A stretch of 64,000 nucleotides of DNA from Owenia fusiformis (taxonomy: Eukaryota; Annelida; Polychaeta; Sabellida; Oweniidae), in NCBI GenBank assembly GCA_903813345.2, contig CAIIXF020000007.1:20325564-20389563 (forward strand), in the 5' to 3' direction. A model generated the notes under the pieces. The model had not been told where the DNA came from, ran no database searches, and saw nothing but the letters and a program-made list of their open reading frames with translations. Below are positions 33,316-38,274 of the stretch, in pieces. The translations under genes were made by a program, and so were the position numbers. How positions within the stretch are numbered: position 1 is the first letter of the stretch; each line of letters starts with the position of its first letter.

Positions 33316-36300
33316 ATGGCAAACCAGGAAATAGAGGGAAATATTTTACCATCACATGAAAACTGCGTGTATACAAAGTGTTATTGGTAAGCTATGCATT
33401 TTAATTTCTACACACACACACGATTGTATTCTATATCTAGATTGTACTTATGATTGTTATTATAGGGAATGCTCAAGGCCAAATAGAATCCGAATTGAGT
33501 CTGTTTTTGGAATAATTTTTTTTGATTTTTTAGCCTTAGAGAGCTTATAAACATGTACCGTGTATCTTCCTCTGAACCTGAACACTTGCCCACTAATCTA
33601 AAATGTAAAGCTGAAAACAGAAGAGTCAACAGTCATGTTCAGGATCTGATAGATTCTAATTACCCTTTGCATTCATTCGACTTTACTTCAATCGAGCTTT
33701 GTCTTCGCTCTTTCAGTTTTCAATAAATTTCTGAACTCACTGAGCTAATCAGAGTTTGTCTTCAGAATAAGGACGACTCTCTATATTTGGTCATAATCTT
33801 TAACGTAATCGCGGGCATCAATTGTGTGGATGGGGCTGCTAAACTGTAACATAGTCTATACTAGACAGAGGCATGATAACCTGATAACACTATCACGGTC
33901 ATGGAACGATCCTTGCATAGGCGTAGTGCCCGGTACGCTGGGTACGCAAAGGCGTACCAGATGGTTGCAAATTTGCTCGAGATAAATACTTTTGTACAAC
34001 CAAATTTCAAAATTTTCCTGTGGGAGAACCCCCAAACTCCCCCCCCCCTAAACGCTCGTTTTTTGCTTCGCTCAATTATTGTTCCCGCGGTGGCGTACTA
34101 CTTAGAAGTATAGCGCTACGCCCATGCCTTGTGCAACTTAAAAACACTTATGCCTGGCACAACCATCGCCATGTTTTGCAAGGATCCTGCCATGACCGTG
34201 GTAGTGTTATCGTGAAAGCCTGGTATAACCGTATAACTTGGTATAACTATATTGCAAGGCCTGTCATGACAGTGGTAATGTTAAAGCCTTATATGACTGT
34301 GGCAATCGTTGTAAGGCCTGTCATGACGGTCGTGGTAATGTTAAAGCCTGATAAACTATGAAATTTTTCATTACGGTATTCTCATGCTACTACTAAAGGT
34401 AATTTAATATAACCATTGTCGCGGTCATATCAGGCTTTAACATTACCAAGGCCATGACAGGCCTTGCAACCATTGTCACGGTCATATCAGGCTTTAATAT
34501 TAGGCTTTAACATAATCAGGCTTTAACATTACCACGGCCAGGCCTTGCAATCATTGTCATGGTCATCTCAGGCTTTAACATTACCAAGGTCATGACAGGC
34601 CTTGCAACCATTATCACGGTCATATCAAGCTTTAACATTAGGCTTTAACATTATCAGGCTTTAACATTACCATGGTCATGACAGACCTTGCAACCACTGT
34701 CATGGTCATATCAGCTGGTTTTAACATTACTAAGGTTATGACAGGCCTTGCAACCATTGTCACGGTCATATCAGGCTTTAACATTAGGCTTTAACATTAT
34801 CAAGCCTTAGCATTACCACGGCCATGACAGGCCTTGCAACTATTGTCACGGTCATATCAGGCTTTAACATTACCACGGTCATGACAGGCCTTGCAACTTT
34901 TGTCACGGTCATATCAGGCTTTAACATTACCATGGTCGTGACAGGCCTTGCAACTATTGTCATGGTCAAATTAGGTTTAACATTGAAGGCTTTAACATTA
35001 CCACGGTCGTGCAACCATCGTCACGGTAATATCAGGCTTTAACATTACCATTGTTATGACAGGCTTGCAACCATTGTCACGGTCATTTTAGGCTTTAATA
35101 TTAGCACAGTCAAGACAGGCCTTGCAATATAATATAGCATCGTCACGGTTACCAGGCTTTCACGTTAACACTACCACGGTCATGGCAGGGTCATTGCGCA
35201 ACTTAAAAACACTTAATAACATGGTGACGGTTGTGCCAGGCATAAGTCTTGCAACAAATAGGGTCTCACATGCAGCTCTGTTGGAATTAGAAAGTGTCGG
35301 GTAGAAAGTGTAAGCATTGTACATGTAAGTGCAAGCACCATACGCCAGTCACAGAAGTACAGTGGCTATAACAAAATGTGACCCTGGGATCTGACCACTT
35401 GATGACGTGATATTTGCTATTATTTTAGTGAAGAGAATGTTTGGAAGATGTGTGAGATGATAACCAGAAACAGTGGAACTAATACAATTCAAAGATGTTT
35501 CGCTGTGTTTGTATCTAATCCACTAAGAATGGTAAGCACTGGTGATCCGCTCAATTATGCTGATTACCGAAACGGTTCGTTTCGGAAACAAAATGTCGGA
35601 ACGTCGAAGGTTCGATATTTCTTTTTTCCTTATTTTACGCATTGTATAGGCAGAATCTTACTTCAGTTAGGAATTAAATCGACGATTCTGTTGTCTTCTG
35701 AACTATTTGTTCGCAAATGTGTACATTTTCTTAAACATATGATACTGATACACGTTTGTGTTAAAAATGTTGTGAGAATTCTGCCTACAATGGGTGAAAT
35801 CAGGAAAAAAGAAAAATCTTAGCTTCAATGTTCCGACAATCATTTTGTTACTGAAAAGAACCGTTTCGGTAACCAGCGTAATTGGTGGATCACCAGTGGT
35901 AAGGAAACATCCTAGAACTACATTTATGTTCATGCAGGTATCAAAACAATTAGACCTCAGTTCATCATGTACTGTAGATTTTAATGAAATATGACAAATC
36001 AAACCGAAAAATGTGCAGTTCATGTAACTGTACATGTACATGGAAATTAAGAATATATAACTTTAGTTCCTGGAATATTATTTTTATGTGCCTTGTGGTG
36101 TCTCGTGTGAGATAATTGTATGAAATGAAATTTTGTGTACTGGATCTAAATGTACAGGGTGTTGCAATATGACTGCCCCTCCCCAGTAAATTGTCATCTA
36201 ACATACATGAATCCTCCTGTGTATACAACAATAGGAATGCAATGATCTGTTGATAGTGAAACCTGCATATCCGAACACCTCTTCTAATCTAAACACCTAT

Positions 36301-38274
36301 AAATGTAAACACTTTTTCTTGGTCACAAATTTATTATCTCTCACCGCTCATTGACTTACACATTTATTGCAAAACCTTCAAATGTGAACATAAATTTTTA
36401 ACCTTTTTTGTCAGATGAACATATTTGGCACTAACAGCCAAACTGTAGTTTGATGGATGGAAAAGTTATGAGCAACTTAACTCAACAAGAATAAATGATG
36501 AATTGAAATATTTTATGTTGTTATGTATAGGTTCCACTATGGTGTCAAAAGGCAAGTCCAGATCCTCTCAATAAACCAGTATGCTGGGTAAGTTCTGTAA
36601 AAGTCTATCTTGAGAAAAGGGAACAAGTTCATGTAATTGTAGCAACATTATATATGAAAGAGGTGGCTTTAGTTCACATGGTGAGCTATTCTGCTATTGA
36701 AATTATCCACTTGCCAAGAAAACTCTGGCAATTAATAGACTGCATTCTTGTTATTCTAACGAAATCAAATTATATTGGCTGTATTTATGATGTCATAGGT
36801 CTGTAGGTGGTAGTCTGTAGATTTTACTAGAAGGCAGTGTTGTTTGATGAAATCTGCTACTTTGGAAGTTGCTGTTTTCCAATTTGCTTTAATGTGAAGG
36901 TATATTACCTCATGTACCTAGTTGATCTTTGTAGGAGTAAACAATAATGTTGTAAATGCTAACAGGATGTTCCATTTTCCAGGACTACCATGTGTTCCTG
37001 GTGTACCCATCACCCAGCTGTAGTCTCGTATATGACCTTGACACCATACTGCCCTACCCTTGTACACTTGATGAATATGTCTCAAACACCTTCATCTCAG
37101 ACAATCATCTGAAGCCAGACTATCACAGGTAAAGTCGTAATGATTTGTTGATATCTTCATACATGTATCATATACTGGGGCATCCCTGGGTATCAAGAGA
37201 GAAATAAACTGGGCAGTACCCTATAGATAACAAACTGATATTACTGGGCATTATTTTTTATTAATTCTGGGCCTAATTTCTAAGATATTGTGAGAAATAT
37301 TTTTCAGGGCGTATCCCAGGGCCTTTTTGATATTCCCCACATTGAACTGTAAAATTTATCAGTTGTATTAATTTGTGAACCTATTTTAGGTTTTTCCGTG
37401 TGATACCTGCTGTTGATTACTTGAGAGTATTTGCCTCAGACAGGAGTCACATGTTGACGGATGAAGGTACATGGCAGGCAACCCCTCCAGAATACCCCTG
37501 CATACAAAGTGAATGTAAGTACAGAACTAAATACTAAGTAATGGATAAACAATAAGTCTTGGGATTAGAAAAATAATGGCCAAGTGGCAAAGCCCCGAGG
37601 CCATTATTTTTCCTAAGACCCAAGCCATTATGGGAGGATTTAGAGTCAGTATGGTGGAACTTTGAATGTTTTCATTCTTGTATTTCAGAAATTTTGTTCA
37701 TATATTAAAATAAATATGACAAGTGTTTGTGTTATCTGCCTTCATGTTTCTGATGGCTTTCACAGGAAGATTTTGAAAACAGCCCACAAGTTCAGTATTG
37801 CAGTTTTCCTAAAAGTGATGTGACTGCCATACACCTATCTGCTGATTGACATGACGTTCAATGGGATTTGCTACATCCTTGTATTGCCATTGTGTAATTT
37901 TATGAAACATGGAAGACCTCTATAAGTGGAACACCTCCCAATTGGAACACTATTGGAATCATTTATGAGTATAACCAATTTTCAAGCAACATTTTACTTA
38001 TATAATGACATTTATACTTCCAGGTAGTAAAAACAATATTCAGGAATTCATCAATATGGAGGCTGACAAAGGTTATGGTCATGTGATGAAACTTGAACAG
38101 TTTGCTAGCATCATGAAATCTCTAACATTATGGAAGATCTATGTACAAGACACTGGTACTACAGACACTAAGATTGGTCAATGTGACCACATTCAAGAGT
38201 CAAATGATATTAGTTTGACTAATGGATTAATTGATGAAAAAAGCTCTGACCTTAATTTATTGGATAACACTTGA
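33316..38274 (+). CDS. NTAQ1: N-terminal glutamine amidohydrolase, 6 exons
   Basis: Converts N-terminal Gln of proteins to Glu, the first step of the Gln branch of the Arg/N-degron pathway. Exons: 33316-33386, 35429-35531, 36531-36587, 36983-37128, 37390-37514, 38024-38274; all junctions keep frame, giving 250 residues against about 205 in human. The start ATG opens MANQEIEG, with Cys24 in CVYTKCYCEEN as the expected nucleophile, His80 in the diagnostic WDYHV and Asp95 in VYDLD completing the triad. FASDRSHM and YPCIQSE match the conserved C-terminal half. The final exon runs some 45 residues past the usual end with a polar, acidic tail (SLTNGLIDEKSSDLNLLDNT). Intron 1 contains a foldback satellite; intron 2 begins directly with a transposable element at the donor site. 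Confidence 0.96.
33866..35262. repeat. Foldback satellite array in NTAQ1 intron 1
   Basis: Units of about 57-60 bases built on CATGACAGGCCTTGCAA, CCATTGTCACGGTCATATCA and GGCTTTAACATTACCACGG fill 34400-35190 in one orientation. The same unit runs inverted at 34160-34350, so the whole folds back around about 34375. Both outer edges carry the same longer unit in direct orientation: GCAACTTAAAAACACTTA at 34132 and 35199, each next to a GCCTGGCACAACC-type word. A separate MITE (33916-34126) interrupts the left edge unit. No coding function; the frames through it are periodic artefacts. Confidence 0.8.
33916..34126. mobile_element. MITE with CCTTG duplication
   Basis: Terminal inverted repeats CATAGGCGTAG and CTACGCCCATG are flanked on both sides by CCTTG (33911-33915 and 34127-34131). 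Excising it with one CCTTG rejoins a satellite edge unit homologous to 35160-35220. The 211-base interior includes a run of C around 34038 and no coding region. The GGCGTAG terminus also appears near 29583. Confidence 0.7.
35537..35898. mobile_element. MITE at the NTAQ1 exon 2 splice donor
   Basis: Ends are CACTGGTGATCC and GGATCACCAGTG, continued inward by GGTTACCGAAACGGTT-type arms of over 110 bases. The element is flanked by GTAAG at 35532-35536 and 35899-35903. The left GTAAG is the splice donor of exon 2, starting at the first intron base. A 5-bp duplication and CAC...GTG termini are what Transib and related RAG-like elements show, but other superfamilies with CAC ends exist and there is no transposase here. 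A truncated relative lies at 42923-43150. Confidence 0.85.

Follow-up and report, generated by a model that had tools for sequence, protein, structure and literature searches.

Introduction

MITEs of cut-and-paste DNA transposons that lie in genes or at splice sites are short, non-coding elements with terminal inverted repeats (TIRs) and a target duplication; they reach high copy numbers, insert into genes and may be exonised, and the element described here is likewise of this kind. In a literature search judged by titles and the openings of abstracts, we found no report of a DNA transposon with a target duplication identical to a splice donor core. Introners were reportedly presented by Huff et al. 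in 2016. They are often MITE-like, and their 5′ splice site can come from the target duplication, according to one account (PMC9860276). In stwintrons, as described in another (PMC12403724), the insert is a nested intron located in the donor of an intron. Here we analyse a MITE of Owenia fusiformis whose target duplication coincides with the donor of NTAQ1 intron 2. It lies in a window of 64,000 nucleotides, by which we mean the whole stretch of DNA that was analysed (C7:20325564-20389563 of the 498-Mb genome).

Results

A MITE between two copies of a donor core

NTAQ1 is encoded on the plus strand, and six coding exons were found. The features of the locus are given in window positions, with the basis of each assignment in brackets:

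33316 to 33386, plus strand: coding part of NTAQ1 exon 1 (frame from HENCVYTKCY, directly followed by a GTAAGC donor; boundaries set by eye; part of the Pfam-matching protein)
35429 to 35531, plus strand: NTAQ1 exon 2 (translation; Pfam PF09764; gapless alignment with 3c9q at the exon 2/3 junction)
35532 to 35536, plus strand: left GTAAG, which is both the donor core adjoining exon 2 and the left-hand target duplication (sequence; 5-bp duplication of the family)
35537 to 35898, no strand assigned: non-autonomous fold-back MITE of 362 bp whose 12-bp terminal repeats are perfect (inverted repeats; genome matches; counts of exact ends)
35820 to 35822, plus strand: TAG, the first in-frame stop that splicing from the right donor would bring in, 76 nt upstream of the donor itself (extended exon translated; position by hand and from the sequence)
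35899 to 35903, plus strand: right GTAAG (AGTG/GTAAGG), the second copy of the target duplication and a possible cryptic donor (sequence; U1 pairing; predicted occlusion of its exon side)
36531 to 36587, plus strand: NTAQ1 exon 3, with the acceptor common to both donors (translation; alignment)

The assembled NTAQ1 protein (250 aa) matches the Pfam family PF09764, Nt_Gln_amidase (1.8e-66, 223.7 bits), and the solved NTAQ1 chains 3c9q (7.9e-58) and 4w79 (9.6e-58). The alignment with 3c9q (C8orf32), an entry that we take to be human NTAQ1, is free of gaps at the exon 2/3 junction (M/V against M/I). The donor that preserves the protein is therefore the one at 35532. Intron 2 starts with GTAAGC, as does intron 1 behind exon 1, and ends with TATAG at 36530. 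A search of the assembly with PF09764 returned three exon matches, all at this locus; it missed other exons of the same gene, and some stretches of the assembly consist of N. The same search of 14 control genomes gave no match.

The insert begins with CAC and ends with GTG. Its termini (CACTGGTGATCC/GGATCACCAGTG) are perfectly complementary over 12 of 12 bases, two further blocks in the arms (44 and 53 nt) are 89% and 83% complementary, and the element folds back over most of its 362 bp. The two GTAAG copies are spaced 367 bases apart. The positions that the initial annotation had given for the end of exon 2, the MITE and both pentamers all proved correct in the sequence, as did its reading that the left core is in place behind exon 2 with the terminal base of the MITE as donor base +6 (35537 is C).

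Intron 1 contains further repeats. In the region 34250-35250, a degenerate minisatellite at 34515-35127 has a 57-bp unit (10.7 copies, 72% matches), or alternatively a 146-bp unit. It is enclosed by longer inverted repeats (34173-34225/35150-35202 and 34143-34175/35218-35250, 91% complementary), so that it may lie inside a larger fold-back element. Another inverted repeat of 35 nt (33883-33917/34177-34211, 91% complementary) surrounds a separate candidate mobile element at 33883-34211.

The family duplicates five variable bases

Searching the genome with the element gave at least 143 matches (40 of 2355 candidates scored), and all copy numbers from this search are minimum values. With any base except C at the fifth position upstream, the exact 12-base end occurs at 2003 sites (1016 + 987), whereas the reversed pattern has 14; the first 100 of the 2003 places were used. 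As this pattern left out ends with C five bases upstream, some ends only appear to be unpaired. A further pattern, CACTGGTGATCCGCCAATT, which is not identical to the left end in the window, had 92 sites with at most three mismatches (20 in the control) and served for the choice of loci only.

Paired ends were present in 59 of the 68 loci examined and absent from nine. An exact 5-bp duplication flanks 34 of the 59 paired copies, with 31 different pentamers, although the pairing script favoured pairs with a 5-bp match wherever there was a choice. Exact flank matches over one, two and three bases were found in 14, 8 and 2 paired copies, respectively, and matches over four or over six to nine bases in none of the 59. 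The remaining 25 copies are taken to be mutated or mispaired. At most 33 of the exact duplications are independent, since L058 and L060 have one flank in common. L058, L060 and L065 have nearly identical flanks, which suggests that the element was copied along with its surroundings in a segmental duplication. A or T occupies each of the five duplicated positions in 25-28 of the 34 duplications. Among 45 measured copies, 25 are 520-539 bp long. Further exact 5-bp duplications were obtained from L069 (C9:19537300-19538250), a 537-bp copy with GTAAG on both flanks, and from 6 of 15 extra unpartnered ends read 4.6 kb inward, which belong to short copies (360-537 bp). The element thus has TIRs, a target duplication of fixed length and variable sequence, small size and high copy number, as expected of a MITE.

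The initial annotation had proposed that the original donor pentamer was the integration target, and had named as a possible refutation that GTAAG might be part of the element's own end. If GTAAG belonged to the element, or were a fixed target motif, its match with the donor would be trivial, and the GTAAG on either side of L069 could be read in this way. The variety of pentamers refutes a fixed motif, and only three ends genome-wide, the window's own included, are preceded by GTRAG, beside 2003 ends found with the restricted pattern. We regard this explanation as having practically no chance of being correct. Given 31 kinds of pentamer among 34 exact duplications, GTAAG at NTAQ1 is the target and not the element, as originally proposed.

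A further possibility is an introner origin, in which the insertion created intron 2 and the duplication supplied the donor. Introners are often MITE-like and can indeed owe their 5′ splice site to the target duplication (PMC9860276). However, the right duplication is followed not by exon 3 but by 627 bp of intron (35904-36530), and the sampled copies lie at many AT-rich pentamers, GTRAG being rare before their ends. We consider an introner origin hardly credible.

Reading the 15 unpartnered ends 4.6 kb inward revealed no recognisable long element with paired ends. Eight of them had no partner in that read, and the family resemblance of L075 stops immediately behind the 12-base end. L084 has an open frame of 595 aa, presumably that of a LINE reverse transcriptase, and the element there measures just 486 bp. 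Transib elements have a 5-bp target duplication, a CAC terminus, GC-rich targets and a RAG1-like transposase. The first two features are shared by the family described here, which is nevertheless not filed as Transib because its targets are AT-rich. A genome search with the RAG1 profile PF12940 gave 0 matches, and none of 14 control genomes matched either.

Chance probably suffices to place the element on a donor

The three exact ends preceded by GTRAG are those of the window, L069 and L070. From the pentamer frequencies of the window, about 3.2 such ends are expected among 2003 (about 1.8 with GTAAG and 1.4 with GTGAG). L070 has GTAAG on its left and GGAAG behind a poor right end (three mismatches), and translations revealed no evident exon upstream of either L069 or L070. 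Alternatively, the family might seek splice donors or transcribed R-loops, with NTAQ1 as one case of many. Only the NTAQ1 case itself speaks for such targeting; the agreement between three ends and the 3.2 expected, and the two copies without an evident upstream exon, speak against it, and we find it highly implausible. The special character that had been suggested for the site is reduced accordingly, the family having no preference for donors.

For insertions in exactly this register, about 0.2-0.8 per genome are expected. The estimate multiplies 1,000-2,000 insertions (the lower figure is half of the 2003 ends, and the upper approaches the 2355 candidates) by 100,000-200,000 introns, an assumed number, and divides by 498 Mb. 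As a single survivor per genome is of this order, chance suffices. The duplication exceeds chance; the coincidence of target and donor does not. The NTAQ1 insertion looks like an accident that survived through its intact left donor.

One of two registers that keep both cores complete

The element was placed in silico in 14 registers over the inferred empty donor. With targets starting before +1, the left-hand side keeps 1-4 of the five core bases (U1 pairing of -2.6 to -5.0 kcal/mol) and the element precedes the whole donor. With targets starting at +3 or later, the left donor is whole and 0-4 core bases remain on the right. Two complete cores resulted in only 2 of the 14 registers, namely +1 to +5, as observed, and +2 to +6, in which the last G of the element would serve. 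The observed register keeps both cores because the target and the donor core are alike five bases long. The change of the +6 base from G, the inferred ancestral state, to C alters the U1 duplex from -8.5 to -8.0 kcal/mol. U1 pairs with neither base at +6, so that donor strength would have been kept and the insertion tolerated.

With the element removed and the flanks joined, a search of the assembly, some stretches of which are N, returned only the two halves of the locus itself, together with 11 matches of no more than about 36-101 bases to one part of the intron.

Two donors of near-equal U1 pairing at the foot of a predicted hairpin

The right donor pairs with U1 at -8.5 kcal/mol, 0.5 kcal/mol better than the left at its present -8.0. 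With pairing this close, sequence alone gives no decision between them. Positions 35429-36000 fold at -216.9 kcal/mol (z -14.9). In the predicted fold of exon 2 with the full intron, a stem is closed by C35537, the +6 base of the left donor, on G35898. The unpaired probabilities in this fold at positions -3 to +6 are 0.98, 0.73, 0.72, 0.73, 0.74, 0.97, 0.34, 0.98 and 0.00 for the left donor, and 0.00, 0.00, 0.01, 0.98, 0.30, 0.97, 0.09, 0.02 and 0.02 for the right. The left donor is mostly open in this fold. Its openness is not robust, however, as exon 2 pairs with four of its bases (unpaired 0.09-0.20 at -2 to +2) in a shorter fold (exon 2 to about 60 nt beyond the element). Positions -3 to -1 of the right copy are buried in both folds (0.00-0.01). 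Pairing at +4 to +6 of the right copy is no argument against it, because the inferred empty donor was already paired there (unpaired 0.12, 0.03 and 0.03); the right copy is therefore distinguished by its buried exon side only. These folds represent RNA alone, leaving out proteins and co-transcriptional kinetics.

Splicing at the right donor would give an extended, largely hairpin exon of 470 nt (367 nt more than exon 2), with a +1 frameshift and the early stop at 35820. Stop codons in such a layout usually trigger decay in mammals.

The initial annotation had suggested that the right copy could act as a competing donor and exonise the MITE. As far as sequence competence goes, this stands; actual competition and exonisation keep the status of a possibility, given the exon side buried in the predicted stem and the frame-shifted product with its early stop. 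A true competitor would place the MITE in some transcripts, which would be frame-shifted and decay, lowering NTAQ1 output. Such a role would be helped by U1 pairing equal to or slightly above that of the left site, a G at -1, an acceptor that serves both donors, and the partial pairing of the left donor with exon 2 in the shorter fold. It is opposed by the location of -3 to -1 within the terminal stem in either fold, the length and hairpin content of the extended exon, and a NTAQ1 frame that is intact though the element is not fresh. On balance we judge true competition unlikely. Most likely, the left donor is functional and the right copy a weak or silent cryptic donor. That the pair might constitute a switch, in which opening of the hairpin foot by temperature, a helicase or duplex editing would shift splicing between the near-equal donors to the right copy and send NTAQ1 transcripts to decay, is very improbable.

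The insertion is probably not recent

Alignment of the window copy with a 534-bp class consensus, built from 32 copies, shows mismatches in 15 of 240 and 9 of 121 columns (6-7%; 8-9% with gaps). For the 32 class copies, a sample biased toward well-kept ones, the median divergence without gaps is 3.1% (range 1.5-8.3%), which places the window copy in the upper part of the range. With this divergence of 6-7% the insertion is probably not recent, and the NTAQ1 reading frame is intact all the same. At this divergence, a run of five bases would stay unchanged in about seven of ten cases, so that selection on the right GTAAG is not to be read from its conservation.

The nearest full-length relative of the window copy is L002 (79% identity over the whole length); identity with L078 is 79% over the first 301 bases. 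Besides the common 534-bp class, short copies are present at L001, L002 and L078 (362, 376 and 360 bp) and may form an older short subfamily. Membership of the window copy in a separate subfamily would mean that its divergence makes it look older than it is.

Discussion

We propose that a non-autonomous MITE with a 5-bp target inserted by chance in NTAQ1 intron 2, through a staggered cut that would have fallen exactly over donor positions +1 to +5. Gap repair would then have left GTAAG on either side, the left copy remaining attached to exon 2 and the terminal C of the element replacing a presumed ancestral G at +6. In the pre-mRNA the element is predicted to form a long stem that closes at +6 and is looped out beside the left donor, with the exon side of the right donor inside it. 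The left donor would be used, and the right copy would be at most a minor cryptic donor yielding a frame-shifted, decay-prone product. We give a probability of about 0.85 to this reading as a whole, from the chance insertion over +1 to +5 to the continued use of the left donor and the minor role, if any, of the right copy. The duplication itself is directly demonstrated at the sequence level, and this single observation is what suggests the order of events.

The case would provide a clean demonstration of a transposon striking a splice signal while leaving the gene unbroken and a ready-made cryptic donor behind. The donor pair also offers a natural test of RNA structure against U1 pairing in the choice between near-identical donors.

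Compared with other MITEs at splice sites, the NTAQ1 case differs in that the target duplication is the exact five-base donor core, with both copies complete. With introners (PMC9860276) it has in common a terminal-repeat element and a 5′ splice site in the target duplication. Unlike them, however, it created no intron: it sits at the start of an existing one, with the acceptor far beyond. With stwintrons it shares an insert within an intron donor, but there (PMC12403724) the insert is a nested intron, whereas at NTAQ1 it is a MITE between target duplications, with the left core already whole. Identity with a stwintron was rejected, as the insert runs from CAC to GTG and the left donor core is complete without removal of the insert. 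We regard the NTAQ1 MITE as a fortunate insertion and not as a novel type of system.
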